Source of the DNA: Helicobacteraceae bacterium
GTDB lineage: Bacteria > Campylobacterota > Campylobacteria > Campylobacterales > Sulfurimonadaceae
NCBI GenBank assembly: GCA_947498025.1
Contig: CANMJR010000023.1
Span: 1 to 44,907, forward strand
Reading direction: 5' to 3'
Length of the DNA: 44,907 bases
Positions 20,584-37,394 of the stretch are shown here, one piece after another. The position numbers were made by a program, and so were the translations under genes. The notes below the pieces were generated by a model. That model ran no database searches, was not told the origin of the DNA, and was given only the letters and a program-made list of their open reading frames with translations. Position 1 is the stretch's first letter. Every line of letters starts with the position of its first letter.

Positions 20584-20629
20584 TGTCATTTACAAGAACA
20601 AAAGTTACTCAACAATAAAAAATGTTACT
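20584..20629 (+). repeat. Left transposon end: terminal inverted repeat and TnsB-like sites
   Basis: The terminal repeat TGTCATTTACAAGAA is followed by two sites ending in GTTACT, at 20604-20609 and 20624-20629, 20 bases apart. Each is preceded by an A-rich stretch, as expected for adjacent TnsB sites. The first GTTACT sits at the same distance from the end as its counterpart at the right end. Confidence 0.85.
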
Positions 20630-20642
20630 GGAGGATTAAAAA

Positions 20643-22319
20643 TTGCCAACAAACAATTCAACAATCCTCGAGTTCTTTACAAAATTTCCTAATCAACCAT
20701 TTGAATTTGTCATCGTAACTGACATAAATATCAAAGAACATCCAAACTACTACAAAGCAATTTTCAAAAACATAAAAACAAATAAATTTCATGCTCAACT
20801 GATAGCCCCAGAAATGATGAGATACAAGTATAAAGTCGGACATATCTACACAAATGGTGAACATGTAGGTCAGAACAAAACCTTATTAAAAAGTGAGTTC
20901 AGAGTTAATGAAAACGACAATATAAATCTTGTACGATTGTCATCAGTTGTTAGTGAAGCAGAAGCTAAAAATATTATAGATTACAAAGAGGTAAGTAAAT
21001 ATTTACTAAGACAATTTGCTCATGTGGAAGAACAAGATGATTGCACACTTATCATACCTTGCTATACAATTGCAAATAGGTTTTATTTCCTATCTTCATC
21101 TATGAAACATTCCATCATGAGCGAGACTCTTGGAGAGCTTTATTATGAAGGTAGTTTTCATAATGAAAAAAATATAAAAGGTGAAACTGTCATAAAGCTG
21201 CATATTAAAAAGAAAGCAGGAAAAAAAGACCTGCCATTTCTATGTCGCTTTATAGGAAACTCTTTTGCAAGAACAAGACTTGAATATATCTCAAATCAAA
21301 AATCTTTAAATGAGAAGTTTGAGTATCAACCTATAAAGGCTCAGTTTCCTATAAGAGAAGCTTTTGATATATACGCTTCATATATATACCTAGGAGACGA
21401 TAAAAGAGGTCAACCTAAGTACCTGGTACTAAATATACATTCGGACAACGCAGCGTTAGGATTTGAAGAACTTCACTATAAACAGTATAGTGCTAAAATA
21501 GACCCTAGAGATATTGGTCCTGAACAATATAATATTCCCAAGCCGCCTAAGAAAAAGTTCAAAAGAAAAAAGCCTCAAAGAAGCAATAAGATTTATACGG
21601 GCACACCATCTAGTGAATATCTGACATATATAATACGCACAAACGAAGATGAATACTATAAAAACAAAGTATCTATGTATGGAAGCACTATCCATTTAGA
21701 GAATGAATCTGAACTTGTTATTGATAATATTCCAAAAACAATAGGAAACAGTTTTGAGACTCCGACAGCTGCTGGAGATAAAAATCTTGGTGAAGTTGCA
21801 ACATCAAACGACCCAGAAGAAAATAATACTGAGAAAAAGATATTTAATCTGGAAAATTTCTATCAGTTTTATGAAGCTTTGCTTACTTTCGCATTTGTTG
21901 AAGGCTCAGAGTTAGTTGGACCGCTAATCATCAATAAAATTCAAAATAAAAAGCGAAAATCCACAAAATCAAGATCATTACTATATAGTAATGAGAACAA
22001 GCAAAGAAAATTTTTGTTTGGAGAGCTTGCTTATGATCAAAAAGCTGTGTATATAGTTGAGATAGAACAAGACAGCAGTTGGGGACCTTCTACTTGGATA
22101 TTTTATACGAGTGAAGATACCACACAATATGCTGAAAGTGATATGCAAGAGATAATTGAACATTATATTGAAGATGACTTATCATATAAAGATCTTACAG
22201 AGTATGTATTAAAGAACTATTCTCTTTATTTTGAACAAAAAGAGCATAAAAAAGGTGATGTTGATGATGATAGTATTGAGAGATGGTGTGAGAGTGTTTT
22301 GAAGAAAGTTACAAATTGA
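20643..22319 (+). CDS. tnsE: TnsE-like transposition target-selection protein
   Basis: In Tn7, TnsE steers transposition to replicating DNA and conjugal plasmids by binding 3'-recessed ends and the sliding clamp. This 558-residue protein is close to Tn7 TnsE in length (538). From memory of that family it shares a central IPCYTIANRFYFLSSSM block and a C-terminal region (about 400-558) with FYEALLTFAF, RKFLFGELAYDQKAVYIVEIEQ and GPSTWIF. A basic stretch PPKKKFKRKKPQR lies near 300. Start is TTG 20643, with GGAGG about 7 bases upstream. It lies 59 bases inside the left end, far from tnsABC, reading inward. The family call rests on motif order, not a search. Confidence 0.75.
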   Translation: MPTNNSTILEFFTKFPNQPFEFVIVTDINIKEHPNYYKAIFKNIKTNKFHAQLIAPEMMRYKYKVGHIYTNGEHVGQNKTLLKSEFRVNENDNINLVRLSSVVSEAEAKNIIDYKEVSKYLLRQFAHVEEQDDCTLIIPCYTIANRFYFLSSSMKHSIMSETLGELYYEGSFHNEKNIKGETVIKLHIKKKAGKKDLPFLCRFIGNSFARTRLEYISNQKSLNEKFEYQPIKAQFPIREAFDIYASYIYLGDDKRGQPKYLVLNIHSDNAALGFEELHYKQYSAKIDPRDIGPEQYNIPKPPKKKFKRKKPQRSNKIYTGTPSSEYLTYIIRTNEDEYYKNKVSMYGSTIHLENESELVIDNIPKTIGNSFETPTAAGDKNLGEVATSNDPEENNTEKKIFNLENFYQFYEALLTFAFVEGSELVGPLIINKIQNKKRKSTKSRSLLYSNENKQRKFLFGELAYDQKAVYIVEIEQDSSWGPSTWIFYTSEDTTQYAESDMQEIIEHYIEDDLSYKDLTEYVLKNYSLYFEQKEHKKGDVDDDSIERWCESVLKKVTN

Positions 22320-22344
22320 AAGAAACATTTTATGTTTACTTTAA

Positions 22345-22350
22345 TATAAT
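22345..22350 (+). promoter_or_regulatory. -10 box for the queC/DndB-like/nuclease operon
   Basis: TATAAT at 22345-22350 lies 27 bases before the queC start; a GCGGAG ribosome site follows at about 22368-22373. It could drive all three plus-strand genes. Confidence 0.45.
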
Positions 22351-22377
22351 GCATTGATTTTAATAAAGCGGAGAACA

Positions 22378-23092
22378 ATGAAATTAGCAATTGTGAGTCA
22401 TAGTGGCGGGTTAGATAGTACAACTGTAATGGGGTATGTGCTAGAGAATGGCTATGTTGTTCAGCCGATTAATTTTGATTATGGGCAACAAAACATTATT
22501 GAAATACAAGCACAGACTAATTTCATTAACTACTTTCAAGGTAAACATGGAAAAGACAAGGTGCTTGATAGTATCAAACTTGATTTCAACTCTATCGTCA
22601 GCCCTTTGCAAAATATCATTGATAGTTTTAGAAAAAATGGTTTTAACAACCAACATTTAGATGAAGCTAACTTAAAGCACTACTTTCCAAATAGAAATAT
22701 ATTGTTTGTATCTATTGCTGGAGTTTTTGCTGAAACACTTGCTTATTTTAAAAATCTAAAAGAAGTCACAGTATACATAGGGATACATAAGCACACAACC
22801 TATTAACCTTATTGGGATATTACTGAAGACTTCGCAAACGCTATGCAAAATGTTATGAGTTTAAATAATGCTATGAGAGTGACCGTAGCAACGCCTTTCG
22901 TAGATTGGACAAAAAGTGATATTGTATGAAAATGAGATTCCATACGAACTTACATGGACTTGTTATGAGCCTCAAAGAGAAGGTGAATATTTTGTACCTT
23001 GTAAAAAGTGTCAAACTTGTGTTGAAAGAGAAAATGCAGGTCTTGAAAACAAATTAAAAGATATTAATAAATATATAATTAGGAGGAATTAA
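22378..23092 (+). pseudogene. queC: Broken queC (7-cyano-7-deazaguanine synthase)
   Basis: QueC converts 7-carboxy-7-deazaguanine to preQ0 using ATP and ammonia. The N-terminal part has the PP-loop SHSGGLDSTTVMG and the conserved FPNRNILFVSIAG. An in-frame TAA follows codon 142 (22804-22806), right after IHKHTTY. The same frame continues PYWDITEDF to VDWTKSDIV, then a frameshift near 22920 leads to IPYELTWTCYEP and the zinc cysteines VPCKKCQTC, ending at 23092. At least two lesions therefore inactivate it as a single protein. The ribosome site of the next gene sits inside its last codons, so it was once translationally linked to the DndB-like gene. Confidence 0.85.
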
Positions 23093-24882
23093 TGCCAAGT
23101 ATTACTGCAAAATATTTAGGAACTGTTAATCCAAATATGGATTCTACTAAATCTGTTGTTGAAAAAAATATTATTAGAGTGAAAGCAAGTGAGTTATCTC
23201 AATGGTTTCAATACAATAGAGAAAAAAAAGGAGGTAGACATCCTTTTAAGTTATCTGACAGTTCTATTATCCAAATACATGAAAGAGTTCAACGCGGTAA
23301 AAATGAATCAGGGTTTGTGTTACAAGAAAAGAATAAAGTGGATGAAATTCGTGACACATTATTAGGGATACATAAAACTGATAAAAAAGTTTATCTTGGC
23401 TCGTTGGTATGGAATATAAGGAAAAAAGAGAGAAATACTATTAAAAAAATTAAAGTTTCTGAAAATGATAATCTACCACCTGAATATGAATTAAGAATGG
23501 ATGTTGATAATATTTATTTGACTGATTCTGCACATAGACACTTTGGAATAGTAGAAGCATATAATGAATACAGGAAAAAACCTGAAGATTATCCTTTTTT
23601 TGATGAAAATTCTGAATTTTCAGTTGAAATTTACAATTTAACAAGTGATGAAGAACAAAACTTATTTAATGAACTTAATTCAAAACAAAAGAAAATTACT
23701 GCTGCTAAGCAAAAAGAACTTGATAACAGTACTCCTTTGGGTAAAATTAAAGATGAAATTATTGATTATGACATGGAAAATGAAAGAATATTCTATAACA
23801 ATATTGAATTGAATTCAAATCAAAACAATAGACATACGTTGATGACCATGTCAGTATTTGTGGCAAGTATAAAAGAAATATTTAAACAAGAAATAGATGA
23901 AGTATATATCAATAGTGATGTTAATGATGAATTAAAATATGAAATTGTGTCGTATTATTGTGATTTTTTTAGTACGTTAAGAGATACAATTAAAATAAAA
24001 TATTTAAGTTATGGTATAGAAAAAGATATATATCCATTTGAAAATTTATATACAAAATATATTTATGTTCAAGAGAATGCAGATTTTGATGATGATGAAT
24101 CATATGAATCTAAACTTGAAGAAGCTAGAGAAAAAGCAAAATTTGTTAACTCAGAAATTAGAAGTCAAGATTTGATTACACATAACATAGCAATAAAGGC
24201 TTTATCAAGATTAGGAAAATTTATTAGGAAAATGTCAAATTGGGAAACGGTAATTGAGCAGATACAACAAAGTTTGATTGTAGCTAATGATGGTAAATTT
24301 TTACAGAAAACAAATGAAGAAATATTAAAAGTATATCCTGGGAATAAGGAAGCTATCGCAACAATAAATCTTGATGGATCTTTAAATATGCAAGTAGTTA
24401 GCTGGAAAGTTGATGACCTATTTAACTATTTAGTAGATAAATTATCTTTAAGGAAAGAAGGAAAATTATATTTTAATCAAAATAATTTTAGTGAATCTTT
24501 AGATAATACTAGTTTTATAAAGGTGTCATTATCTAATATCACAAAAGTTAAATTTAGATATGACTTTTTTATTGCGGATAAGCTTTTTGATGAAATTTCT
24601 TCAAGTGACTTAGCAATTAATATTATAGCTTTAGATAATTGGTCAAAAATAAAATTTACAGGTAAAAATTCAATAAAAGCTAGAAAGAAAGATTACGATG
24701 AAGGGTATGCTGATGAAGTATATGACAAAGGCATAAAAAAAGCTTCGGCAATTTTTGAAATAGATTTACCACCTTTTGAAAATAATGAACATTTAAAAGA
24801 AGGATTAAAGGTTAAGATAAAAGTACCAAATATTTCAATTGGAAGTGAAGTTGAGTTTATGCTAAAAACTATTTTGGAGTAA
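23092..24882 (+). CDS. DndB-like protein of the DGQHR superfamily
   Basis: This 596-residue protein has the layout of DndB/DGQHR-domain proteins, ParB-related regulators and partners of DNA-modification systems. The diagnostic motif is altered: YLTDSAHRHFGIVEA, with DSAHRH at 145-150 in place of DGQHR. It is followed by VEIYNLTSDEEQNLFNELNS and KKITAAKQKELD, the helical segment seen in DndB. The C-terminal 200 residues are unassigned. Base composition is markedly more AT-rich than in flanking genes. The ATG overlaps the end of the broken queC, has AGGAGG upstream, and the nuclease gene follows after 7 bases. A role in controlling or targeting the nuclease is inferred. Confidence 0.65.
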   Translation: MPSITAKYLGTVNPNMDSTKSVVEKNIIRVKASELSQWFQYNREKKGGRHPFKLSDSSIIQIHERVQRGKNESGFVLQEKNKVDEIRDTLLGIHKTDKKVYLGSLVWNIRKKERNTIKKIKVSENDNLPPEYELRMDVDNIYLTDSAHRHFGIVEAYNEYRKKPEDYPFFDENSEFSVEIYNLTSDEEQNLFNELNSKQKKITAAKQKELDNSTPLGKIKDEIIDYDMENERIFYNNIELNSNQNNRHTLMTMSVFVASIKEIFKQEIDEVYINSDVNDELKYEIVSYYCDFFSTLRDTIKIKYLSYGIEKDIYPFENLYTKYIYVQENADFDDDESYESKLEEAREKAKFVNSEIRSQDLITHNIAIKALSRLGKFIRKMSNWETVIEQIQQSLIVANDGKFLQKTNEEILKVYPGNKEAIATINLDGSLNMQVVSWKVDDLFNYLVDKLSLRKEGKLYFNQNNFSESLDNTSFIKVSLSNITKVKFRYDFFIADKLFDEISSSDLAINIIALDNWSKIKFTGKNSIKARKKDYDEGYADEVYDKGIKKASAIFEIDLPPFENNEHLKEGLKVKIKVPNISIGSEVEFMLKTILE

Positions 24883-24889
24883 ATTTTTT

Positions 24890-25684
24890 ATGATTGAGTA
24901 TGAAGTTTTTGAAGATAGGCTAAAGAATAATAAGTGTCTTAAAAGTAACCTTACTTTAAATAATAATGAATATATAGTCAGTAAAAAAAGTTTTTCTCAA
25001 TTATACCAATATATTTTTGATGAAGTTGAATATAAGTTTATAAAAAATATTGTTTCTTGTATACATAAAAATAATAGAAACATAACATTATTCGATAGTC
25101 ATACATTAGAGAAGGTTCAATTATTTTTTAATATTTTAATTTTGATTGGTGACAAATATATTAAGGAAAGAGAAATTCACTTATATATTTTTTTATTTTG
25201 GGATAAATTAATTTGGGATAAAGAGTTAATTGATAATGTCAAGAAAAATCACTTTTTTTATGAGGGACAAATTATTGATGAAAATGATAAATTTCAACAA
25301 AATTTATTACCATTTATAGCAAGTAATTGTGACTTAATTTATTATGATAACAAAAATAATTCTATTAAACTTATAGAAATTAAGAATGTAGATTTAGATG
25401 ATCGTGCGATTTCTCAAATTCAAAGATATTATCGTAATACAAACTATATTTGTGAGACATCTAACCATCAGTTAAATATTCTTCACCTGCAACCTACTCT
25501 TATAATAAAACATGAAAACTTAACACAAAAAAAGGCTAAGACATCTCTCATTGAGTATTGGCAAACTTTTCCAACATATTTTAGAGAACTTTTAAATATA
25601 TATAGTTTTGAGTATTGTAAAATAAAAGGAACATTGAAGCTAATTAACTTAAAGCCAAAATTAAAATCATTGTTAAAAAATTAA
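24890..25684 (+). CDS. Putative PD-(D/E)XK nuclease
   Basis: This 264-residue protein carries a restriction-nuclease-like core near residues 125-185: E125 in FFYEGQ, D148 in SNCDLIYYD, then E163 and K165 in IKLIEIKNV, followed by Q176 in a helix. This D-(14)-E-x-K spacing is the PD-(D/E)XK metal site. The N-terminal 100 residues are helical and unassigned. It is the last gene of the plus-strand operon and ends 4 bases before the converging queE. In this setting it is the best candidate for the cleaving half of a modification-restriction system. Exact family not recognised. Confidence 0.6.
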   Translation: MIEYEVFEDRLKNNKCLKSNLTLNNNEYIVSKKSFSQLYQYIFDEVEYKFIKNIVSCIHKNNRNITLFDSHTLEKVQLFFNILILIGDKYIKEREIHLYIFLFWDKLIWDKELIDNVKKNHFFYEGQIIDENDKFQQNLLPFIASNCDLIYYDNKNNSIKLIEIKNVDLDDRAISQIQRYYRNTNYICETSNHQLNILHLQPTLIIKHENLTQKKAKTSLIEYWQTFPTYFRELLNIYSFEYCKIKGTLKLINLKPKLKSLLKN

Positions 25685-25688
25685 TTGA

Positions 25689-26273
25689 TTATTTTATTTC
25701 TAAAAACTTATGCATTTGAACACTAAGTTTAAAATGTGGGTGTTGTTGAACTAATCTGATGCAGTGCTGAATATTTGTCATATCTGGTATATGCAGACCA
25801 TTCTCTGGTTGGATATAAAGTGGTTTAGTAGTTTTAAGTTCAAGAAGAGGACTCATGTCAGTTTGTCGGTTTACAACAAATTTAAATTCATCTGCATGCG
25901 TTATATCTATATTAGTCCAATCTTTTGGGCTGTAGGTTATCCAATCTGCTTTAGAAATATTTTGAAAGTTAAATCCATTGGTTTCTATGGATACATAATA
26001 ATCATGCTTGTGTAGAACTCCAATAAATTCATTTAAATCATGTATAGAAGGTTCTCCGCCGGTTATGATAATATGTTTTGATGGGTACTCTTTTATTTCA
26101 TTTAGTATCTTTTCATAGTTATAGCTTGTATATTTTTCAGTATGAAGTAGGTCATCGCAAAATGGACATTCTAGGTTACAGCCATATAGTCGAATGAAGA
26201 TCGATGCTTTTCCTGTATGTGTTGCTTCGCCCTGAATGGAGTAAAAGATTGTAGTGACTTTTAAAGTATCCAT
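25689..26273 (-). CDS. queE: 7-carboxy-7-deazaguanine synthase (radical SAM)
   Basis: QueE makes 7-carboxy-7-deazaguanine from 6-carboxy-tetrahydropterin, the committed step toward preQ0. The 194-residue protein starts with FYSIQGEATHTGKASIFIRL and has the iron-sulfur cysteines C32, C36 and C39 in YGCNLECPFCD. Other signs are the SAM-binding ITGGEPSIHD and the C-terminal YIQPE. It is the last gene of the minus-strand dpd operon, directly abutting the DpdB-like gene. In the island it would supply precursor for DNA modification rather than tRNA queuosine. No queD or folE is present in the transposon, so the host must provide those steps. Confidence 0.93.
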   Translation of the reverse strand: MDTLKVTTIFYSIQGEATHTGKASIFIRLYGCNLECPFCDDLLHTEKYTSYNYEKILNEIKEYPSKHIIITGGEPSIHDLNEFIGVLHKHDYYVSIETNGFNFQNISKADWITYSPKDWTNIDITHADEFKFVVNRQTDMSPLLELKTTKPLYIQPENGLHIPDMTNIQHCIRLVQQHPHFKLSVQMHKFLEIK

Positions 26274-27350
26274 TTATTTGATTAATCCAATAACATAATG
26301 TCTAAACATATCAATATCCTTGCTAGTATTTTGAATATCCATAATATTTCGTTGGTATCCATTTCCAAAATCATATTTTCCATTTGACCAATCAATTTTC
26401 TCTTTTAATGGTTTTAGGTACTTCTCAAAATCAGAGGTTATAAATGATCTTTCATCTAAATAATTTGCTTTACTCTTGAGTATTTTTTTGTATAAAATAA
26501 TCTCCATGAGATTGGAAAGAGCTAAAATGCCTGCACCATGAGTTAATCTAGTCTCTTTAGGATTTATCTTCCAATCTTTAGGAAAAGTGGTTTGGACTGC
26601 TCCCCAAAAAGCATTTAATAAACTACACATAGCTTCTACATCATTCATACCCAATTCGTGCTCACTGAACGCATATAAAACACCATCAGTTAAACTTGAA
26701 TTAATAGCTTTGATTAAAGTATTGTCCTTGATGTATCCGTCTGGATAAGTATGTGTTTTTATGGAATGATAAAAAGGTGAATGAATTTGAGTATTTAATA
26801 TAGATATTAATCTATTTGGTAATTGCTTGTCTTTGTAGGTTGATGGCAATTCGCTTGTAAGTTCAGGTAATAATTCATAGATTAAAGGTTTTGGAAGAGG
26901 TTTTGTATTGTTTATAAGTAAAAACTGTTCTCTTTGTTCATCTGTGTCATCAGTAATAAATGCATTGATGGCTACTTCAAATTCATCATTTGCTAAATTT
27001 TGTAAGGCAGTAGACCTTTGTTGTCCATCAACAATTTGACCATATATTTTATTTTTTGGAATAGATAAATATCCAAAATCACTATTTTTTTCTATTGGCT
27101 CAAATTTAACATTTGAATCAAAACAAATAACTATTGAATTAGCTAAAATTGATTTTTCATCTGAGAGATAATTTACAATCTCTTTTATATGTTTTGTAAC
27201 TTCGATTCTTTGATAACCAAGTAACTTTCCTTCATTATTTCTTTTTATTCTATCTATCGAAGCGAAGGACAATATATCTTTCCCTATAGCTTTAAAACTA
27301 TATATCTCTTTGCCATGTTGATTTATTTTGATTGCCGGGAACTTTAACAT
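26274..27350 (-). CDS. DpdB-like DGQHR-domain protein 1
   Basis: This 358-residue protein is a DGQHR-domain (ParB/DndB-related) partner of DpdA; Dpd systems need such a protein for base insertion into DNA. The motif reads IVDGQQRSTAL with DGQQR at 108-112, and is followed by EQREQFLLINNTKPLPK and LTHGAGILALSNLME. It is paralogous to the protein at 28599-29708 over its whole length; shared blocks include REQF, NTKPLPK and the Leu-rich tail. It overlaps the DpdA end by 7 bases and abuts queE, so it is part of one operon. Confidence 0.8.
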   Translation of the reverse strand: MLKFPAIKINQHGKEIYSFKAIGKDILSFASIDRIKRNNEGKLLGYQRIEVTKHIKEIVNYLSDEKSILANSIVICFDSNVKFEPIEKNSDFGYLSIPKNKIYGQIVDGQQRSTALQNLANDEFEVAINAFITDDTDEQREQFLLINNTKPLPKPLIYELLPELTSELPSTYKDKQLPNRLISILNTQIHSPFYHSIKTHTYPDGYIKDNTLIKAINSSLTDGVLYAFSEHELGMNDVEAMCSLLNAFWGAVQTTFPKDWKINPKETRLTHGAGILALSNLMEIILYKKILKSKANYLDERSFITSDFEKYLKPLKEKIDWSNGKYDFGNGYQRNIMDIQNTSKDIDMFRHYVIGLIK

Positions 27351-28594
27351 TTTATATTATGACCTTTTCTTAACTCTTCTAATTCTCTTTGAAATTGCCA
27401 GAGATTATGAAAACCCCTCCGTCTATTTCTATTGGAGTTTCTAAAAATAATAGTTTCTATTTTTGCACTTTGACAGACTTCACAAGTACATTTTTGCCAG
27501 TATTTGCTTGAAAGTATATCTTTATATCTATCAAGAGGAACTTTGTCCCTGAAAATTCTTTCATAAGCTTTTAGACACTGCAATGTGTATTCTAGAGTAG
27601 TATTACCCTTATCATATTCGCGAATAGCATTGAGTGCTTGTTGTTCCATTTTTTGTGCTGTATTTTGGTTGATTACCCCTGAGGAGATCTTACGTTTAAG
27701 TGCAGCTGTTGTGTCTGATGATGGTATTCTTACTGCCGTATAATATTTAGTCGGTGCAAAATAATTGTTTTTGCTGTCTTTGAACGCTTTTATGAGTGGA
27801 GATGTGGAATCAAAACTTGTAATTTTATATTTAACAAATCTCTCTAACTGCTTTGCTTTCGCAAATCCAAGTAAGTGCATTTTAATCTCAAAACCTATTT
27901 CGTCTCTAATAGCAGCGACAATTTCTTCACATAAATTTGCATCTAAAGGAACGAGACCTCCTATGGCAATATAATCATATCCTAAAGCTACGAGAGATTT
28001 TGCGGCAGATTTCATACTTTGTGGAGACCATGCTTGAACTACACCTATTGGATGAAAATTCACATTCTGTACTCGGCATTCATGTAAAAATTCTTTTGCA
28101 TTATTGAGTGTAATGTCATATCGTTTTTGCATTGTTTCAGTAACTTTAAAGTTATCATCAAATTCTGCATCAGTATCAAATCTTTTATCATATTCAAATA
28201 TAATATGGTCGACAGACATACCATAATCAAATCCACAATCTTCGTAAAAATCGACTGTTTCTGCTACGCTATAAGGTGGCTCATCAAGCTTGTGATAACT
28301 AAAAGCACCGTTGTCTCCAAATATTTCACCATCAAAGTATCTTAAAAAGTTTTTCACACCTTGTAGCCGTAATCTTCGAGATTGTGCCGCACTGTAAGCT
28401 TTACTAGAAGATTTATATACTCCATCATCAAGCAATCCTCTTGATATTAACATCCCGTCATATGGCTTTTTTTTAAATATTTCATGGGGATATTTGTCGG
28501 TTCTTTGCAATACTCTATCAGATGAAAACTCATCATTTAAAAAATCATAATTCGGATCTATGGTATCTTGTGCATCAGCAAATATAAATTTCAT
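27344..28594 (-). CDS. dpdA: DpdA-type DNA 7-deazaguanine transglycosylase
   Basis: DpdA is a relative of bacterial tRNA-guanine transglycosylase that swaps guanine for preQ0 in DNA. In 416 residues, the catalytic aspartates fit D94 in GDNGAFSY and D262 in ITSFDSTSP. GGLVPLD (212-218) matches the substrate loop. The zinc site is C369, C371, C374 and H396. The N-terminus FIFADAQDTIDPNYDF is DpdA-like and unlike TGT. It lies between two DpdB-like genes. A true queuosine TGT is less likely, given the N-terminus and partners. Confidence 0.85.
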   Translation of the reverse strand: MKFIFADAQDTIDPNYDFLNDEFSSDRVLQRTDKYPHEIFKKKPYDGMLISRGLLDDGVYKSSSKAYSAAQSRRLRLQGVKNFLRYFDGEIFGDNGAFSYHKLDEPPYSVAETVDFYEDCGFDYGMSVDHIIFEYDKRFDTDAEFDDNFKVTETMQKRYDITLNNAKEFLHECRVQNVNFHPIGVVQAWSPQSMKSAAKSLVALGYDYIAIGGLVPLDANLCEEIVAAIRDEIGFEIKMHLLGFAKAKQLERFVKYKITSFDSTSPLIKAFKDSKNNYFAPTKYYTAVRIPSSDTTAALKRKISSGVINQNTAQKMEQQALNAIREYDKGNTTLEYTLQCLKAYERIFRDKVPLDRYKDILSSKYWQKCTCEVCQSAKIETIIFRNSNRNRRRGFHNLWQFQRELEELRKGHNIKC

Positions 28595-29708: not shown

Positions 29709-29709
29709 A

Positions 29710-30615
29710 TTAATTATCGTCCTTTATTGTAGCATTGAAAAGTTTTCCGTAGCGTTTTTGTTCAGATGCAAAACCTTTCATCCTGAGATTTTTTAAACCT
29801 TGTGTGGCACTTTTAATATTTTCTATTTTGATTTGATTTATAATAATTTTCATGAGTTCATTATCATTTAATTGCTTTCTTTGCTCGATTTTATAAGGAG
29901 CAAGTTCTGATAAAAATATATCTATATGATTTTGTAATATCTTATGATTCAATGGCAGTTCTTTAGTCATAACTTCATTAGATAACCATCTCATACATCT
30001 TTGTGAAAGGGTTATAAATGTTCCTTTTTCATAGGAATTAAATCGTGTATCAAAGCGTAAACTTCTATTTTCTATTTTGCTGGATAGTCTGTTTTTTGAA
30101 GATGATAAGATAAATATTCTTTTATCAAAAATATCTATTAAATTTTCAATAAAATCTTTTAATGCAATTAAATAATCAGATGGCAAAAAAAGAAATATAT
30201 AGGATTCAGTATTTAAACTATTTAAACTAAATTTATTAATTTTAGTCCACCATTGTTGTGTTGGATTTTCTATGTTTTTAAAATTATGAATACTATCTTC
30301 ATGCCCTTTTGAAAATGTAATACCATAAGAAGAAATCATTTCATTAGAATTTATTAAACCATGACCAGCCGACGCAATTAGAAGTTGAGTAGTAAATTTA
30401 GTAGAAAAAAAATTTTCAACATCTAAAGTAGCTTTCCAACTTGGTCCTTGATAAAGCTTTCTCGCTGGGATCTTATCTATATTATCCGAAGATAAATTTT
30501 TCTTCCATTCAGCACATGACTTCTCAATGTTTGACAAGTCATAATTCCTAAGTAAATGCTTGTCGTCAGATGTCATAGACTTAACACTTGTACAGCTAGA
30601 AATTAAATAAATCAT
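29710..30615 (-). CDS. YaaA/DUF6884-like protein, DpdC candidate
   Basis: This 301-residue protein begins MIYLISSCTSVKSM and has PARKLYQGPSWKATL and LLIASAGHGLINSNEMISSYG, the pattern of the YaaA/DUF6884 group. DpdC, which converts preQ0 in DNA to the amide form, was assigned as I recall to a related family (DUF328), so this first gene of the operon is a reasonable DpdC candidate. The C-terminal 120 residues are helical. No catalytic residues can be assigned with certainty. It heads the five-gene minus-strand operon behind an extended -10 box and a 13-bp inverted repeat. Confidence 0.55.
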   Translation of the reverse strand: MIYLISSCTSVKSMTSDDKHLLRNYDLSNIEKSCAEWKKNLSSDNIDKIPARKLYQGPSWKATLDVENFFSTKFTTQLLIASAGHGLINSNEMISSYGITFSKGHEDSIHNFKNIENPTQQWWTKINKFSLNSLNTESYIFLFLPSDYLIALKDFIENLIDIFDKRIFILSSSKNRLSSKIENRSLRFDTRFNSYEKGTFITLSQRCMRWLSNEVMTKELPLNHKILQNHIDIFLSELAPYKIEQRKQLNDNELMKIIINQIKIENIKSATQGLKNLRMKGFASEQKRYGKLFNATIKDDN

Positions 30616-30646: not shown

Positions 30647-30713
30647 ATTATAGCAATTATTTTGTAAATATACATAGCTATTTCATGTGTTTATTAAACT
30701 GCTATGTATATTT
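30647..30713 (-). promoter_or_regulatory. Promoter and inverted-repeat operator of the dpd operon
   Basis: On the minus strand an extended -10 box (TGCTATAAT, hexamer at 30647-30652) lies 31 bases before the operon start codon. A perfect 13-bp inverted repeat, AAATATACATAGC (30666-30678) and GCTATGTATATTT (30701-30713), is separated by 22 bases. The nearer arm covers the expected -35 position, so a bound dimer or tetramer would block RNA polymerase. The rest of the gap to 30818 has an imperfect hairpin (TGGTCTTAA 30757-30765 with TTAAGACACCA 30782-30792) downstream of tniQ. Confidence 0.55.
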
Positions 30714-30818
30714 TAAATATTTCAAAAAAATTGATTTTTGTTATGGCTATAGAGTTTGGTCTTAAACTTTCATTTTGAACCTTAAGACACCAGAAAAGAA
30801 GAGTACTGTATTTTATGA

Positions 30819-31949
30819 CTAAATATAACTTTGTAAATTATTGTCATTACTACTAAAATTACACCCTAACAATTTGGTCAAATTCGCTTTATTTATGTCT
30901 TTATTGATTGATCTTAAATATCTCATGGCATGTGCTACTTCTTCTTTCGTGACTGTCATACTATGTGGCAAATACCGTGGAGTAATGCCATTAACTGCTT
31001 TTTCATACCAAAACGGCACATATGGCATTTTTGTAGTCAAGTCGTGATATGTAAGCTTGTTTGTTAGGACATAGCTTTTTAAATTGTGCGGGAAATCTTC
31101 AAATATATACATAGTCAAGCCAAAAAGTGCTGATTGTGCTTTTGCATCTATTTTTTTAAATATAGGATGGTTGACTTTTTGTTGTTTCACATCTTTTATA
31201 AGCAAAAATAGTGGATGTTTATTTATAAATTGATGTTTAGCATTTAGAAGTATAAGCTTGGATAGTTTTGAAAAAACTTCAAAAAATAAAAATGAGTAGA
31301 TTGGAGTTTTGCCAAGCAGAATATACCCATCTTGAATAATTTTGAAAATTTTGTTTTGATAGTCAAGACTTGAAATATACTTCTTGTGAATCGGCAGTTT
31401 TCTTCCTTTTTTAAGTTCAAATCCACAGTGGTGGCAGTGTGTGTAGAGCAATTTATTATCATACATCTTAGAAATATCTAGTTCGTTTTTGCAAGTGGGG
31501 CAATGTTCGTATAAACGACATTGATGCTTATGACAAATATTGTAAAAAACAACTCGCCATTTTTTTCTAAAGTATGGTATTGTGTCTTCACGCAAACAGA
31601 GAGGGCAATATTTCTGATGGGTAAAAAATATAGTCGGATTATTCTCATAGATATTTTCTTGAAGAAATCCAGAATATGTTTTTAGCATCAGAGAATGGAC
31701 ATCTATTTTATGAAGGCTTTTATCTTCGATGGTTTTTATCATATTTTCGTCTAAGGTGATATCACTCTCTGTAAGAAAAAAAGCATGAGGTCTGTAATTT
31801 AGATATTGGTTTGTAAAAGTGTGTGGATGTGTCTTGTGTGCATACGCTGTGCGAACTATCCAAGAGGATAGTATCTCATCTTCAAGTGGTATGGGAATTA
31901 TTGAAAAATTTTCATGTTTTAGTCTTGAAAAATTGACTTTTTTAATCAT
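30819..31949 (-). CDS. tniQ: TniQ/TnsD-family target-site protein
   Basis: TniQ/TnsD proteins bind the attachment site and recruit TnsC. This 376-residue protein has the TniQ N-terminus IPLEDEILSSWIVRTAYAH and a double zinc-binding region: CPLC (115-118), C139 and C144, CPTC (150-153), and C172/C175 in HCHHCGFEL. A C-terminal helical region of about 190 residues would bind DNA. It is shorter than Tn7 TnsD (508) but longer than the CRISPR-linked TniQ proteins. As the only TniQ in the element, it is the likely reader of the argJ 3' end. It overlaps tnsC by 4 bases. Confidence 0.88.
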   Translation of the reverse strand: MIKKVNFSRLKHENFSIIPIPLEDEILSSWIVRTAYAHKTHPHTFTNQYLNYRPHAFFLTESDITLDENMIKTIEDKSLHKIDVHSLMLKTYSGFLQENIYENNPTIFFTHQKYCPLCLREDTIPYFRKKWRVVFYNICHKHQCRLYEHCPTCKNELDISKMYDNKLLYTHCHHCGFELKKGRKLPIHKKYISSLDYQNKIFKIIQDGYILLGKTPIYSFLFFEVFSKLSKLILLNAKHQFINKHPLFLLIKDVKQQKVNHPIFKKIDAKAQSALFGLTMYIFEDFPHNLKSYVLTNKLTYHDLTTKMPYVPFWYEKAVNGITPRYLPHSMTVTKEEVAHAMRYLRSINKDINKANLTKLLGCNFSSNDNNLQSYI

Positions 31950-32887
31950 ATATCTTTTAAATTCATCGTCTTATGAACATTTCCAAGTGTATTGAATCCG
32001 CACTCTCTTATCTCTTTTATTGTCACTCTTTCACTGCCATTTTTTATTGAGTAGATAGCAGCTGCTTTTATAAGATTAACTATCTCTCCTATATATCCAT
32101 TACATAACTCTAGTATTTCACTTGCATCATCTTTATTAACAATTGTTGACTGTTCTTTTAAAGGAAGTTTACCAACTATTGTCGCTAGCAGACTCACATA
32201 GTTCTTATCCATTTTCCACTTTGTAAGATATTGCGGTCTGTATCTGCTACTTATTTGATCTTCAGTATTAATTGCACGCAAGGCTTCTTTTACACCGGAT
32301 AAAATCACAGGCATTGTAAGTTTACTACTCAGGTCTCTTATTGCACTCATTATTTGTTTTTGTTTTGCAGGTGAGCCATTTAGTATATTGTGTATTTCAT
32401 CTATAATTAAAACTCTGACATTTAATGTTCTGAGATAATACTCAACAAGCTTGGCTTTTGAATCAAGAGTATCTCTTGATTTGTAAGGTACATTTAACTG
32501 CTCAAGTATTGTGCTGTATAGCCTTGTTTCACTTGGCTCTGTTGGCGATATTATATAAATTACAGGTCTTCCTATTCCAGTATATTTATCAAAAAATTCA
32601 TCCGTAACCCATTCAGGTCTTTCGCCTTCAATATTGTAATCATAGGGAGGGTGCTTTTTTATAAACTGTTTTAAGAGTGAAGTTTTGCCGTTATTGCTGC
32701 TACCGACAAGTAGCGCACTGATATACCTTATTTGACCATACCCATACTTGTAAATATCTTCCATTTTGTCTAAAATATTTTGGGCGATTGGATAATCTAT
32801 CCAATACTCTTTATTGATATATTCTATTCTTTCTTCATCAGATTTGTTTAACATATCTTTTGTTTCAGGAGTTAATTCAATACTCAT
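31946..32887 (-). CDS. tnsC: AAA+ ATPase transposition regulator TnsC
   Basis: TnsC links target-site protein to transposase through ATP-dependent filaments. The 313-residue AAA+ protein shows Walker A GSSNNGKTS (62-70), Walker B VLIIDEIHNIL (159-169), a sensor-like VILSGV and arginines in SSRYRPQYLTKW. It is much shorter than Tn7 TnsC (555) and resembles TniB-size proteins, so the N- and C-terminal extensions that bind TnsD and TnsA in Tn7 are missing. It overlaps tnsB and tniQ by 4 bases each. Confidence 0.9.
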   Translation of the reverse strand: MSIELTPETKDMLNKSDEERIEYINKEYWIDYPIAQNILDKMEDIYKYGYGQIRYISALLVGSSNNGKTSLLKQFIKKHPPYDYNIEGERPEWVTDEFFDKYTGIGRPVIYIISPTEPSETRLYSTILEQLNVPYKSRDTLDSKAKLVEYYLRTLNVRVLIIDEIHNILNGSPAKQKQIMSAIRDLSSKLTMPVILSGVKEALRAINTEDQISSRYRPQYLTKWKMDKNYVSLLATIVGKLPLKEQSTIVNKDDASEILELCNGYIGEIVNLIKAAAIYSIKNGSERVTIKEIRECGFNTLGNVHKTMNLKDI

Positions 32888-34743
32888 AAATTATTCTCTT
32901 CAATATCAAATATTTTTATATCATCAAATAACTCGTCAAACATATCATCAACTTTTTTAGGTTTGGATTCTTTAATTTGAGATGTTTGTTCTTTTGACTC
33001 AATATCACTCATTTTAGGTGCTTTGCTTTTTCTGAGCTTGTGTTTCACTGTTTTTTCTTTTGCCTGTTTTTCTATCTCGGTAAGCCGTTCATATGCATCA
33101 AAAATATCATCTTCATGAATATCTTTAACACTATGCTCTTTTAAATATCTTTTTGCTGCATACATATCCCAAAGTGTCATTTTTGGTGCATGAAGCTTCC
33201 TATAATTCAATTCAAAATACTCTTTTAGTTCAGGGTCGAAGAAATACAGCTTTTGTATATTGAGCGGGTCTCGTTTGACTTTGAACTTTAGTTTATTACC
33301 GTTGTCATCTTTTTTATTTATCCAGGTTCTAAGAACATCTGAATAGTAAGTTATCCCATCCAATGTTAACCCATCTTTTTGCACAGTTCTGTGGAATGTA
33401 GGCAATAAAGTGATTCTAATAGACTCTTTATCTTCAACTATAGGCGGTATGCCGGTTCCAGGATTATCGTCATCACCAAATATTCCAATATAATACTTTT
33501 GCTTTGGTGTCATGCCAATGCCATGATGTACTCGTTTATGATAAACATTAACTATAAACTCCGTTAACCACTTAGTTATTTCATCGAGTGTCAAAGTGGC
33601 ATTTTTAATAGAATCGTATTCAGCTTTTTCTGCAACATTTGAAAATGTTGTACCTGGCAAATTGTGTATCTCTTTATTTATTGTTCCTAAAACACGCTCT
33701 ATGTGTGCTCCAAACTGTGGTCTTCCAACCGGTCTTCTAGTCATTGTCATGCCAAATTCATCACAAACTCGTTGCATATCTAGTCCGATTAGATCTTTTC
33801 CATTGTCCACTGCATATTTGGATGGAATTCCATATATCTCCCATTCACCGTCTACACCTTGTTGTTTTAGAAACTCATCTTTTGGTAAAAAAGCGTTATA
33901 CAAACACTGGCTTACACTAAAATATCCAGGTGCTTGAAGTGAGAGATAAAAGCCTGCGACCATTCTGGAATAAATATCTAGTGCAAGCGTTAAATAAGGT
34001 CTTCCTATAGGTTTCCTGAATATTGGATCTACAAGCATAATATCAAGTGGAGTGTGGTCAATTTGATAAACTTCAAGAGGAAAATTGCCTTCCGGATATT
34101 CTCCTTCAAAGTTACCAAATTCTTCATTTGCTTTTTTATGACTAAAGCGTTTTTTCATTGCAAATTTAGGGTCAATTGCTTTGATTCTATTTCGTACTGT
34201 ATTTTCATGAGGCGGAGTAAGATTTAACTTCTTACATTCAGACTTGATTGTTTTATATATTTTTGGAAAACCTGTTCTTTGTTTAGTTAAATATAGTTCT
34301 TCCACGACATCTTCAATAACTTTATTAGAAACAGTATCTATTCGACTGCCTTTTTTGCCTCTTTTATGTTTATTTGACACAAGTGAGCTTGTTTTTTCTG
34401 ATTCTTCATAAGTTTTAATCCAGCGGTATATAGTCATAGGAGTTACATTAAGTCTAGCAGCTACATCTTCAACTTCAGTTCTAGTTTTTTTTCTGAAAAC
34501 TAATTCTTTAATAGCGTCATACTTAGACTTTGCTTCACTCCATTCTTCATCGCTATATACATCTAACTGAACTTTTGCATCTTTAGGTTTTGAAGATAAA
34601 TCTTTTATCGGTACATTTATTATCTCATCTTTATTTTCTAATGAGCATATAGATAAGGTGTGAAAGTTAACTGCTTTTACAATTTCATATTCTTTGTCTT
34701 GATAAAAAACTTTTGAGCCATTTGATAAGCTTAGTTTACTCAT
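32884..34743 (-). CDS. tnsB: DDE transposase TnsB
   Basis: TnsB binds the transposon ends and cuts and joins the 3' strands. The 619-residue protein has N-terminal helix-turn-helix regions (VEDVAARLNVTPMTIYRWIKT), the RNase H-fold core and a C-terminal beta-barrel region. The catalytic triad is D229 in YQIDHTPLD, D313 in AVDNGKDLIG and E349 in HIERVLGTINKE. The Lys-rich C-terminal tail (about 570-619) probably contacts TnsC. It overlaps tnsA by 8 bases and tnsC by 4. Confidence 0.94.
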   Translation of the reverse strand: MSKLSLSNGSKVFYQDKEYEIVKAVNFHTLSICSLENKDEIINVPIKDLSSKPKDAKVQLDVYSDEEWSEAKSKYDAIKELVFRKKTRTEVEDVAARLNVTPMTIYRWIKTYEESEKTSSLVSNKHKRGKKGSRIDTVSNKVIEDVVEELYLTKQRTGFPKIYKTIKSECKKLNLTPPHENTVRNRIKAIDPKFAMKKRFSHKKANEEFGNFEGEYPEGNFPLEVYQIDHTPLDIMLVDPIFRKPIGRPYLTLALDIYSRMVAGFYLSLQAPGYFSVSQCLYNAFLPKDEFLKQQGVDGEWEIYGIPSKYAVDNGKDLIGLDMQRVCDEFGMTMTRRPVGRPQFGAHIERVLGTINKEIHNLPGTTFSNVAEKAEYDSIKNATLTLDEITKWLTEFIVNVYHKRVHHGIGMTPKQKYYIGIFGDDDNPGTGIPPIVEDKESIRITLLPTFHRTVQKDGLTLDGITYYSDVLRTWINKKDDNGNKLKFKVKRDPLNIQKLYFFDPELKEYFELNYRKLHAPKMTLWDMYAAKRYLKEHSVKDIHEDDIFDAYERLTEIEKQAKEKTVKHKLRKSKAPKMSDIESKEQTSQIKESKPKKVDDMFDELFDDIKIFDIEENNL

Positions 34744-35383
34744 CCCATCCTCCTGGATAAATTATTGATGACATAGTAATTTTTTCATTCATATTAATTA
34801 AAGCCCTGTTTTTAAAGACTTCTTTCCAGATATATGGGATTACCTTTAACTGTTCACTCGGTTCCATAGTTATAGATTCTAAAAGTGCTTTAACCACTAC
34901 GGGTGAACTATATTTTTTTATAGCTTCTAATACTTTATTTGTCATCTCGTTGTTTTCAATCAAAAAAGCATATCTATATAAGAATGTGTAAGTCTTAAGA
35001 TATTTGTCATTAAGATTGATATCTGTAAAGATTTCAAAAGAAAGTGATTTTTGTTCAAATATTTCATCTTTTAAAACAGACAACTTATGCTGAAGCTCTT
35101 CACTTGAATCAATCTCATTTTGGTATTTAACTTCAAATACTTTTTGAGAACCATTTTTGTAAGTCACTAAAACATCAGGAGTATATCTGGTGCTTGCACC
35201 ATTTAGTTTATAGTTAATTCTAAACGGCTGCTCTTCATAGGACAATACATCATCTTCAAATTCAAGAATAGTAAAAAAATCTCTTTCAAGTATAGACTCA
35301 AAAGCCACCTGATTATTGTTCTTATAACTTTTAAAATATCCTACGCATGATATGTAGCTCTTTTTTATTTTTCTTACACCCAT
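34736..35383 (-). CDS. tnsA: TnsA endonuclease
   Basis: TnsA cuts the 5' strands so that transposition is cut-and-paste. The 215-residue protein has the TnsA N-terminal restriction-like fold: E29/E33 in FESILERDF, PD at 69-70 in TRYTPDVLV and E84-x-K86 in FEVKYQ, followed by a smaller C-terminal domain. Its presence implies that the element excises fully, leaving no cointegrate. The ATG at 35383 has no ribosome site, and a TGATATAAT box ends only 6 bases upstream, so the message may be leaderless. It is first in the tnsABC-tniQ operon. Confidence 0.93.
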   Translation of the reverse strand: MGVRKIKKSYISCVGYFKSYKNNNQVAFESILERDFFTILEFEDDVLSYEEQPFRINYKLNGASTRYTPDVLVTYKNGSQKVFEVKYQNEIDSSEELQHKLSVLKDEIFEQKSLSFEIFTDINLNDKYLKTYTFLYRYAFLIENNEMTNKVLEAIKKYSSPVVVKALLESITMEPSEQLKVIPYIWKEVFKNRALINMNEKITMSSIIYPGGWDE

Positions 35384-35389
35384 TAAATA

Positions 35390-35395
35390 ATTATA
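35390..35395 (-). promoter_or_regulatory. Extended -10 box of the tnsABC-tniQ operon
   Basis: On the minus strand TGATATAAT has its hexamer at 35395-35390. Transcription would begin about 7 bases on, at or next to the tnsA ATG, giving a leaderless transcript. A TnsB-site-like sequence at 35429-35450 lies upstream, where bound TnsB could regulate the promoter. Confidence 0.5.
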
Positions 35396-35428
35396 TCAAA
35401 ATAAAAAATAATTTTAATAATAAATTTA

Positions 35429-35450
35429 ATAACATTTATTATTGTAAAAA
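35429..35450 (-). repeat. Degenerate internal copy of the transposon end
   Basis: The stretch TAACATTTATT-N-TTGTAAA at 35430-35448 matches the right terminal repeat (from 37372) at 18 of 19 positions by eye but lacks the terminal TGACA. A second fragment, AGTAACATTAA, is at 35480-35490. The 300-base gap between tnsA and the gene at 35684 (35384-35683) is very AT-rich. It also holds TATACT near 35640 and the AGAGGG ribosome site of the plus-strand gene. Confidence 0.6.
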
Positions 35451-35683
35451 TAAACTAATTAACTTTTTTATATATATTTAGTAACATTAATTTTTAGAAA
35501 ATAGTATATGTCTAATTTGTCTTTGGAATATATGGAATGTCCCTATAAACTAGACAATATTTAATTCAGTAAATTAGATAAAATTATGTTAAGTATGAAA
35601 ATATATTTAGTCAATCATGTTAATGTGCTTTTTTAATGTATACTTAGTTGATTGTTAGAAAATACAAGATATAGAGGGTTACA

Positions 35684-36346
35684 ATGAATAAAAACTATTA
35701 TGTATTTAGAATATCTAAAGGTTCACCCAGTGGAAGTCCTGAGTCTTCATGTCCTATTGAATATACAGAAGAACGTGCGAATGAAATATTTAATAACGCT
35801 GATAAGATGGCTAAAAATTCAATTCCATATGACACTAATAAGTATCAAGATTATCTGCATAACGAATTATGGGAACATGGTAGACTTAGGCAAGGATGGG
35901 GAAGTAAAGGTCTTAGTTTAGATGTTTGCCCTAGTAAAGACAATGTTTGTTCTGAATGGATAGAAAATTTTATGATAGCAATGAAAAGAGATTGGAATCA
36001 TGACTTAGAAAAAGGAATCGATTATTGCCATATTGCTTCTGGGCGGTATAATATCTTAAAACATATGAGATACATGAAAAAGGGTGATATTTTAATTGTC
36101 CCTAGGCATTCTCAAGGGAAACATAAGGATAATACAAAATTCACTATATGCAAAGTCAAAGATTTATATTCTTTTGATGTAAATAAGAAATATAGAGATT
36201 TTGGACATATATTAGGAGTAGATATCCTTGGTTCTATTAATTATAATTCAGCTAGTATACGGGCACTTACATTTAAGCCTTATGGAAAGGCTATTGTAAG
36301 AATTAGGGATGAAGAATTAATAAAACAAATTGAAGATAAGATATAA
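35684..36346 (+). CDS. Hypothetical protein, possible EVE/PUA-like reader domain
   Basis: This 220-residue protein is not firmly recognised. The pattern GRLRQGWGSKGLSLDV, then KKGDILIVPRHS, FTICKVKDLYSFD and YRDFGHILGVDIL resembles PUA-like (EVE/YTH-type) domains found in type IV restriction and other modified-nucleic-acid readers. No nuclease or ATPase motif is present. It is transcribed divergently from tnsA and lies between the operon and the right transposon end, so it is cargo. In an element that writes modified bases, a reader of modified DNA would make sense, but this is inference. Confidence 0.4.
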   Translation: MNKNYYVFRISKGSPSGSPESSCPIEYTEERANEIFNNADKMAKNSIPYDTNKYQDYLHNELWEHGRLRQGWGSKGLSLDVCPSKDNVCSEWIENFMIAMKRDWNHDLEKGIDYCHIASGRYNILKHMRYMKKGDILIVPRHSQGKHKDNTKFTICKVKDLYSFDVNKKYRDFGHILGVDILGSINYNSASIRALTFKPYGKAIVRIRDEELIKQIEDKI

Positions 36347-36520
36347 AATAGTTTCAAATAAAATAACAGAATAGTCTTTCAAAAGTTAATTACGGAGTAG
36401 TTACTTAGAAGATGTTTGTAGGCTTAGGATATATACATCCCTAAACATATCATTAAAGCGAACCAATAAATATCTAGATACTTTATAATTTTCCAAGAAC
36501 TTTTAAAAAGGAATCTATGT

Positions 36521-37365
36521 ATGAAATCTACATACTATGTATTAACTGAAGAAGATGAACAAGCAATAGAATTTCATAAAAAAACGTTTGAAGAAATTGA
36601 CGATATTGGTTTTGATATTTTAGATAAGGTGTTAGGCAGTGAAGAAAAATTAGAAAACTATAAAATACCCATCAGAAGTATATTATACAGACTTCTAGAA
36701 TTGAATGATACATTAAATGTTATGGTTCAGAACTCTTTGATTAACACAAGTTTTTCCATATTGAGAAATGAATTTGAAACGTATATTCAAATATTATATT
36801 TATTACAAGAGAGAGAGAGCAAATAGAAGAAAAAGCCTTACTATATCATTATTGCGATATAGTGAGAATAAATTTTTCCTTAACGGAAGAAGAATTAAAT
36901 GAATTTTTATCCCAACATAAATATTTAGATAGTATCCATCAGAAATATTTTAAAGGCAAACGTTTATTTAAACGTCAATGGTATAATTTGTATGATGAAG
37001 GAGTGAAATCATTTAAAGACTTGTGCAAAAAAGTAGGCAAGGTGGAGGACTATGATAAATTGTATGCACATCTGTCAGCAGATATCCATGGAACAGGAAA
37101 TATTGAACTTAATACATTGTATAATGATACTGATGGAAAATATGATTTATTAAATTTTAGACATTTTAAAAGGCATCACACATTGATGGTTTACCATATT
37201 GACTTTTCTAGAAATATATTCTTATGCATTACAAACAGTTTTAAGACAAATAAGAATGTTCAAAACAAAGTAAATGATTTTTGCACAAGAGCAGAAGGGT
37301 ATGTTGCAATGTATAAAAAGATGAAGGGTGGATATTTAGATCCTTTACCTGAGTATTCTATATAA
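36521..37365 (+). pseudogene. DUF5677-like gene, frameshifted at an (AG)6 repeat
   Basis: Two overlapping frames make one protein of about 280 residues: the first (36521-36826) ends LRNEFETYIQILYLLQERESK, and the second continues EEKALLYHYCDIVRINFSLTEEE from about 36820 to 37365. The junction is an (AG)6 run at 36808-36819; with five AG units the frames join as QEREQIEEKALLY. DUF5677 proteins are helical and may be HEPN-related, function unknown. A clear ribosome site (AAAAGGA) precedes the ATG. The gene stops 29 bases before the right transposon end. It may be a true pseudogene or phase-variable. Confidence 0.7.
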
Positions 37366-37368
37366 CGG

Positions 37369-37394
37369 AGTAACATTTATTCTTGTAAATGACA
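37369..37394 (-). repeat. Right transposon end: terminal inverted repeat
   Basis: Read inward on the minus strand this is TGTCATTTACAAGAA, then a variable stretch, then GTTACT at positions 21-26. It matches the left end except at two or three positions. AGTATT at 37352-37357 may be a weaker second TnsB site. Confidence 0.9.

Follow-up and report, generated by a model that had tools for sequence, protein, structure and literature searches.

How does a Tn7-like transposon come to lie at the very end of a housekeeping gene in a member of the Campylobacterota, and what does it carry there? The question is raised by a stretch of 44,907 nucleotides (nt) from a Helicobacteraceae bacterium placed in the Sulfurimonadaceae (assembly GCA_947498025.1, contig CANMJR010000023.1, forward strand), which was analyzed as a whole and is called the window. 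An initial annotation, made from the sequence alone, had described a complete Tn7-like transposon with a Dpd-type 7-deazaguanine cargo next to argJ. The element very probably represents a two-pathway Tn7-like lineage that homes to the 3' end of argJ, this copy carrying a Dpd modification module. In the following, genomes are designated by G numbers, G000 being that of the window.

The element comprises 16,811 bp (20584-37394). Read directly, its left end opens with TGTCATTTACAAGAA at 20584 and its right end finishes with TTCTTGTAAATGACA at 37394. A perfect 5-bp duplication, ATAAT, borders it at 20579-20583, where it overlaps the argJ stop codon, and at 37395-37399. The inverted ends agree by 93% across 27 bp and, in another comparison, by 91% across 32 bp. 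In a blind search for end pairs (TGT/ACA flanked by 5-bp duplications, no fewer than 13 of 20 end bases alike, 15.0-30.8 kb versus 35.4-41.0 kb), the single pair obtained was 20584/37394, with 18 of 20 end bases alike. Thus, the window element has the TGT...ACA ends and the 5-bp duplication by which Tn7-like elements are recognized. The duplication was perfect in all eight elements of the lineage with both ends identified, i.e., those of G000, G092 (two copies), G116, G097, G072, G152 and G134; G089, with a weak candidate for the second end (3 mismatches) and flanks that do not match, was left out of this count.

Both ends carry copies of a 21-bp box. The left end (20584-20629, plus strand) consists of the terminal TGTCATTTACAAGAA and two boxes (20589-20609 and 20609-20629) that are conserved in relatives, and the right end (37369-37394, minus strand) has one, found by reading and by a box scan (37369-37389). 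Two more boxes of the end type (35428-35448 and 35480-35500, within 35428-35500 on the minus strand) were detected by the scan upstream of tnsA, in the orientation of the right end and with 1 and 3 mismatches, respectively. When up to 4 mismatches were allowed, seven boxes were found in the element, namely these five and two weak ones within genes, whereas 30 single-base shuffles gave 1.07 on average and the remaining 28,096 bases of the window three. Six elements have a conserved stretch upstream of tnsA: the first inner box recurs in five of the five other elements at the same distance from tnsA (1-3 mismatches), and the second in four of five (4-5 mismatches). The boxes are candidate TnsB sites, and the inner pair may be an operator bound by TnsB or the relic of a right end that was formerly next to tnsA.

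The transposition genes tnsA (34736-35383), tnsB (32884-34743; DDE transposase), tnsC (31946-32887) and tniQ (30819-31949; 376 aa, the presumed argJ target selector) form one leftward run on the minus strand. All four are intact and above the Pfam cut-offs (Tn7_TnsA-like_N, 2.3e-16; Mu-transpos_C; TniB, 2.4e-54; TniQ, 1.1e-21). Motifs that we take to be those needed for catalysis and metal binding were seen in the tns proteins by eye. TnsB homologues with 79-82% identity were present in five genomes of the family, among them G115, whose copy was split over two contigs (82% and 72%). Since TnsA is much less conserved among close relatives (54-62%) than TnsB, exchange of tnsA is suggested by these sequences.

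The gene adjoining argJ (20643-22319, plus strand; 558 aa) lies at the left end, far from the other tns genes, which are on the opposite strand. Its product matched Pfam TnsE_C with 20 bits (E 6e-4), under the cut-off of 26.7 bits. A structure model based on an alignment with six relatives (five at 55-86% identity, one at 24%) was good at the C-terminus only (residues 400-558), the predicted local distance difference test score (pLDDT) of the N-terminal part being mostly below 50. The C-terminal model matched 9d5l, 5d17 and 5d16 with Z-scores of 11.3, 10.6 and 10.4 over 145-150 residues (root-mean-square deviation 3.5-3.6), the next unrelated entry reaching 6.7, and the top rank in Foldseek was also TnsE (E 8e-3). 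A sequence search of the PDB with the TnsE profile gave no match, and no TnsE relatives were found in the plasmids searched. Because the modeled C-terminal fold matches solved TnsE structures, the gene is assigned as tnsE, with support that covers the C-terminal domain. Hence, the complete Tn7-like transposon of the initial annotation was borne out in its ends, duplication and full tns set, and its TnsE-like gene, sub-threshold as a sequence profile, was supported by the fold.

The insertion point is the stop codon of argJ (19389-20582, plus strand; named from reading of the protein and in the initial annotation), and argJ is left whole. In order to count occupied sites, ends of this type were searched within 4 bases of the argJ stop, scoring the first seven end bases only. 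Such an end directly follows the argJ stop in 24 of the 228 genomes of the host's family, at 25 places, and a control with the reversed pattern gave none. At all 25 places the end is positioned 0-2 bp past the stop. Eighteen of the 24 genomes belong to the window's genus and six to three further genera. In a phylum sample of 397 genomes, argJ-site ends were found in 11, all among the 52 of the family and none among the other 345. The initial annotation had treated argJ as a mere flank; it does adjoin the element, but the site is the argJ stop codon itself, a recurrent attachment site and not an arbitrary intergenic gap. Compared with the cargo, homing to argJ is the finding of wider scope. The site-specific insertion beside a conserved gene that characterizes Tn7-like elements is thus found here at argJ.

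Within the window's genus, argJ was found in 129 of the 135 genomes searched, and 30 argJ loci were read. An end was present at +4/+5 in nine and absent in 21, and in 13 of these 21 end-free loci the carbonic-anhydrase-like gene (name by reading) that flanks the element on the right in the window lies within 1.5 kb. Wherever tnsE was identified at argJ, the tnsE end faces the gene (10 of 10 elements: G000, G152, G115, G134, G135, G195, G104, G092, G097 and G116). The right end of the element is followed in G092 and G097 by another end, the two being joined by a shared 5-bp repeat, and this arrangement suggests serial insertion at argJ.

A comparison with related genomes had been proposed as a check for the empty site. 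The exact site was not found among the relatives examined; the closest relative by ArgJ (G152, 97%) is occupied at argJ by an internally deleted relative of the element, in which partial tnsE and DUF5677 sequences (97% and 91% identical to the window in DNA, respectively) are fused, with a right end and a TAAAA duplication. Since this insertion is one base off and the duplications differ, the G152 and window insertions look like separate events. At the G152 locus (L098, G152:C22), the left end is doubled ahead of the deleted element, the copies being 79 bp apart. G134, too, has a similarly deleted element at argJ, about 1 kb long.

Mobility of the lineage was evident from G092, which carries its element twice, each copy being 17,627 bp long with 0 differences between them. 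One copy is at argJ (duplication ATAAA) and the other within flhF (duplication CATAC); joined over one copy of the duplication, the flhF flanks give a single continuous reading frame. The second copy (G092:C1, about 700-718 kb) interrupts flhF, a name given by reading, and the strain may have altered flagella. In G072 (G072:C1; L046, L047), a related element lies inside dprA (duplication AAGAA), and again the joined flanks read in one frame. The G072 element itself bears a dprA-like gene (by reading); attachment at dprA, with a replacement copy brought along, may be a second habit.

These relatives bear on whether the window element is a dead island, immobile and with its cargo decaying. Its queC and DUF5677 genes are broken, and deleted derivatives sit at argJ in G152 and G134, as such an island would lead one to expect; however, the window copy retains every tns gene and both ends intact, and the identical G092 copies indicate that a close relative moved recently. 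A dead island is therefore improbable, and the window element is probably mobile.

Which component reads argJ was approached through the proteins that the elements share. Among open reading frames (ORFs) of at least 70 aa, only TnsA, TnsB, TnsC, TniQ and TnsE are common to the four full argJ elements (G000, G092, G116 and G097), and the set was unchanged when the dprA-inserted element of G072 was added. One GmrSD-type protein is common to G092 and G116. A sixth protein of at least 70 aa common to the four full argJ elements was not found in this search, which used no TnsF model. TniQ identity to the window protein is 64-81% in the argJ-sited elements of G092, G116 and G097 and 37% in the dprA-inserted one of G072. 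TniQ is favored because only five proteins are shared, no guide stands out and TniQ identity splits by site; these comparisons point to TniQ as the reader of argJ.

Two other ways of reaching argJ were weighed. The gene might not be read by any transposon protein, host structure such as the transcription end or local DNA shape attracting an element of low specificity whose harmless insertions survive. The copies in flhF and dprA, which show that other sites are usable, would fit this, as would the lack of a dedicated selector such as TnsF common to the argJ elements. Junctions confined to 0-2 bp from the stop at 25 of 25 places and a single orientation in 10 of 10 elements with tnsE identified argue against it, orientation control being known for Tn7 and its relatives according to a 2024 review (PMC11406308), and attraction by host structure is quite improbable. 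Homing by an RNA guide that matches argJ has precedent, since the same review describes guide RNAs serving the attachment sites of some Tn7-like elements. However, no Cas gene was found among 16 element proteins scanned with Pfam and ten scanned with NCBIfam and PADLOC, and the longest exact match of the roughly 150-base argJ 3' end inside each of the four elements is 12 bp, within the 10-14 bp of shuffles, although a mismatched guide would escape this comparison. RNA-guided homing is extremely unlikely, and a CRISPR-associated transposon was rejected for want of Cas genes and of an argJ-like guide by exact match.

For homing by TniQ, the conserved last argJ codons (INADYRT) would be the likely recognition sequence. 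TniQ would act with TnsC and TnsAB, the element entering 0-2 bp past the argJ stop with its tnsE end first and keeping argJ intact, while TnsE would permit insertion elsewhere.

In comparison with Tn7 (described in part after PMC11406308), the window element shares TnsA, TnsB, TnsC, a selector of the TniQ family, TnsE, the 5-bp duplication, insertion just past the 3' end of a conserved housekeeping gene and orientation control. It differs in that Tn7 uses glmS whereas this lineage uses argJ, at the stop codon itself; in that its selector is a 376-aa TniQ and not the longer TnsD; and in that tnsE lies at the other end on the opposite strand, with cargo flanking the tns operon left and right. 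With the glmS site as the strict mark of Tn7, the argJ site places the element outside Tn7 proper. With Tn6022-like elements it shares the short TniQ (369 aa in Tn6022) and a tnsE that stands apart, close to the left end and on the other strand. According to Faure et al. 2023 (PMC10293859), the Tn6022 TniQ depends on a partner, TnsF, to find its site; no TnsF-like sixth protein is common to the four full argJ elements. Moreover, Tn6022-like elements inactivate comM (PMC11406308), whereas argJ stays whole; the window element lies at argJ and its relatives also in flhF and dprA, not in comM. The dprA-inserted relative G072 is closer to this gene-disrupting habit.

argJ is apparently unreported as an attachment gene. 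The sites named by the 2024 review include glmS, yhiN, comM, parE, tRNA genes, guaC, yciA, ffs and rsmJ (PMC11406308), and no report of argJ as a Tn7-like site was found in the open-licence literature, where co-mentions of Tn7 and argJ are unrelated by title. Four genera of a single family have elements at this gene, and their minimal tool set (TnsABC, TniQ and TnsE) would allow a direct test of how a short TniQ locates its site. Because the last residues of ArgJ are conserved, a new protein-guided integration tool is also conceivable.

The cargo left of tniQ contains the modification part of a Dpd system, i.e., DpdA, DpdB and DpdC. On the minus strand follow one another queE (25689-26273; intact by family scans), a first dpdB (26274-27350), dpdA (27344-28594), encoding the DNA-guanine transglycosylase, a second dpdB (28599-29708) and dpdC (29710-30615; DUF6884-like). 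DpdA (NF041059, 500.9 bits; cut-off 200) and the two DpdB (NF041060, 385.7 and 431.2 bits; cut-off 300) were named by NCBIfam equivalogs and DpdC by PADLOC (1.5e-38 over residues 4-299), Pfam DUF6884 remaining under its cut-off. The DpdA protein aligns along its length with 7UI4 (1.7e-97), which is the Salmonella Montevideo enzyme. The order dpdC-dpdB-dpdA-dpdB-queE recurs on plasmids of Caulobacter (L113) and Sinorhizobium (L114), where queD and queC follow.

In contrast to the known Dpd system, the run in the window lacks queD, its queC is broken, DpdD-K were not recognized among the ten element proteins scanned with PADLOC, and the carrier is a Tn7-like transposon. The broken queC (22379-23089, plus strand) has three stops within its hidden Markov model (HMM) match, and the second piece is in another frame. 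Since an intact queC (G000:C4), queD (C14) and a probable queE (C35) lie elsewhere in the genome, preQ0 could be supplied in trans. As described in PMC12839542, DpdA and DpdB swap guanine in DNA for preQ0, which DpdC converts to an amide (dADG), and the window proteins would be expected to do the same. A Dpd restriction arm in the element was rejected on the PADLOC result, and DpdJ of G135 was not found in the whole window genome by a search that had no positive control. Because no Dpd restriction genes were recognized, the likely net effect would be marking or shielding of host and transposon DNA. Thus, the Dpd-type cargo of the initial annotation was confirmed by family models for DpdA, two DpdB, DpdC and QueE, but as a modification module only, with queC broken.

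DpdA is rare among the relatives, being present in two of the 228 family genomes, that of the window and G135, and giving matches in three of 377 genomes of the phylum sample, the window's own included. Matches in G508 and G390 were weak (26-28%, partial) and were not counted as DpdA. A search for dpdA near Tn7-like elements had been proposed as a further check; of 18 DpdA loci examined, only the window's lies within a delimited Tn7-like element, and one Azospirillum plasmid is ambiguous. Besides the loci of the window and G135, these comprise 16 named loci, three of them on genome contigs and 13 taken from the 26 plasmid records. In 15 of the 16 (L110-L114, L126 and L136-L144, L110 covering only 3.7 kb), nothing matched the tns proteins of the window, so that the tns matches among the 16 are confined to the Azospirillum plasmid stretch (NZ_CP059450; L133, 227000-276900). 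This plasmid, which gave matches to both DpdA and TnsB, carries tnsA-tnsB-tnsC with a TniQ-like gene at a distance of about 41 kb from its Dpd genes. In the best-scoring end pair (14/20, duplication GAAGT, 13.5 kb), the tns genes are inside and the Dpd genes outside; shuffles reach 13/20, and other pairs with 14/20 or 13/20 would take in the Dpd genes, which may therefore lie either inside or outside the Azospirillum element.

The Dpd island of G135 has the same order as that of the window, queE, (queC), dpdB, dpdA, dpdB, dpdC, with protein identities of 68% for queE, 55% and 63% for dpdB, 62% for dpdA and 39% for dpdC. Unlike in the window, it is adjoined by DpdD, DpdJ, DpdK and an HNH-type protein, and no transposon was delimited around it. 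As delimited Tn7 cargo it was rejected, G135 having no tnsB match. One isolated end-like match (C30:21776; 2 of 15 bases off) faces the island without a second box half or a partner, and the argJ contig of G135 stops about 2.2 kb into that genome's own element.

No paper joining Tn7-like elements with 7-deazaguanine was found in the open-licence literature, an absence that is not proof, and in the one paper found that names both Tn7 and DpdA, mini-Tn7 serves as a tool. In their large survey of cargo, Benler et al. 2021 (PMC8649781) count 14 DND, identified by DndE and DndB (PF14072), and the main text uses 'Dnd', whereas the words 'Dpd' and 'deazaguanine' are absent from it. Because DpdB also matches PF14072, some of these 14 could be Dpd loci. 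Within these bounds, the view that the combination is not a standard example was upheld. The window provides the first case found of a Dpd modification module in a delimited Tn7-like transposon, and its sister elements at argJ bear restriction-type cargo.

In order to compare cargo, Pfam was applied to 20 of the 34 cargo ORFs of G092, G116, G097 and G072, two being cut at the locus edge. Two cargo slots were apparent, the interval between tnsE and tniQ and that between tnsA and the right end; the relatives' genes in them differ, and several are of restriction type. The tnsE-tniQ slot holds an N6 methylase and an AAA_5 protein in G092 (with specificity-like genes by reading), a DNA methylase and a helicase-type ATPase in G116, and an SLFN-type helicase, an adenosine-deaminase protein and a PAPS-reductase protein in G072. 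GmrSD-type proteins occupy the slot right of tnsA in G092 and G116, and a RES domain was the sole Pfam result in G097 (six of seven ORFs scanned). Among these exchangeable cargoes, the window's Dpd module is a further example.

Two genes of the tnsE-tniQ slot raise the question of whether the cargo is a complete defence system. A 596-aa protein of the DGQHR/DndB superfamily by family scans (DGQHR596; 23092-24882, plus strand) is followed by a 264-aa orphan (24890-25684, plus strand), a possible nuclease with a weak NucS-like match over a D...EIK stretch (E 0.0057, 15.7 bits; cut-off 216). DGQHR596 had no relative besides itself in 397 phylum genomes and a single 143-residue match (30%, Sinorhizobium) in plasmids and viral contigs. 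No relatives of the orphan were found in the phylum genomes, plasmids or viral contigs searched, and its single-sequence model (pLDDT 34) was uninformative. In a complete system, Dpd would mark self and this pair would be a new restriction pair cutting unmarked or foreign DNA. The two genes stand in one operon-like run with queC, and pairs of DGQHR and HNH-type nuclease genes lie beside Dpd restriction genes in G135 (L054, 10520-12971) and on an Agrobacterium plasmid (L137, 28018-31030). These two pairs are related to each other (DGQHR 28% over 344 aa, 2e-32; HNH-type 29% over 119 aa, 5e-12), and the restriction-type genes in the relatives' slots would also be in keeping. However, the window pair has no sequence similarity to that of G135 (best E 1.5), the NucS match is far under the cut-off and the model poor, no homologues were found that would reveal conserved active residues, and the queC of the same run is broken. 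By analogy, a functional DGQHR-nuclease pair in the window is thinkable, and a complete defence system is a tentative, rather unlikely reading. PMC12137116 describes GrwAB, which resembles GmrSD and attacks 7-deazaguanine-modified phages. A broader proposal, speculative and also improbable, is that a short TniQ reads the argJ 3' codons without TnsF or guide, that the Dpd mark shields transposon and host from restriction, including the GmrSD-type systems of sister transposons, and that DGQHR596 and the 264-aa protein are a new reader of the mark.

Several observations weigh against a lineage homing to argJ of which this copy carries a Dpd module. The 376-aa TniQ is short like that of Tn6022, yet a shared TnsF-like partner was not seen. 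At two of the nine occupied argJ loci, G089 and G094, no tnsE match was found, and since the pattern scores only seven end bases, some of the 24 argJ-site matches may be remnants. No empty argJ site from the species of the window was present among the relatives examined. DpdA inside a delimited Tn7-like element comes from one genome, and the cargo is partly decaying, with queC broken and the DUF5677 gene split.

The latter gene (36521-37365, plus strand) is split over two frames, and a related sequence stands at the right end in G152. Together with a 220-aa gene (35684-36346, plus strand), for which no family was found in Pfam, NCBIfam or PADLOC, it forms the right-hand cargo. Immediately outside the right end lies a 14-bp inverted repeat (37410-37437; 93%), followed by a perfect tandem 20-bp direct repeat (37507-37546). 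Elsewhere in the window, a DUF3800 protein is encoded outside the element (43233-44348), proteins of this family often being found near mobile or defence genes, and a tandem pair of tRNA-Phe genes with the same anticodon is present at 5647-5827.

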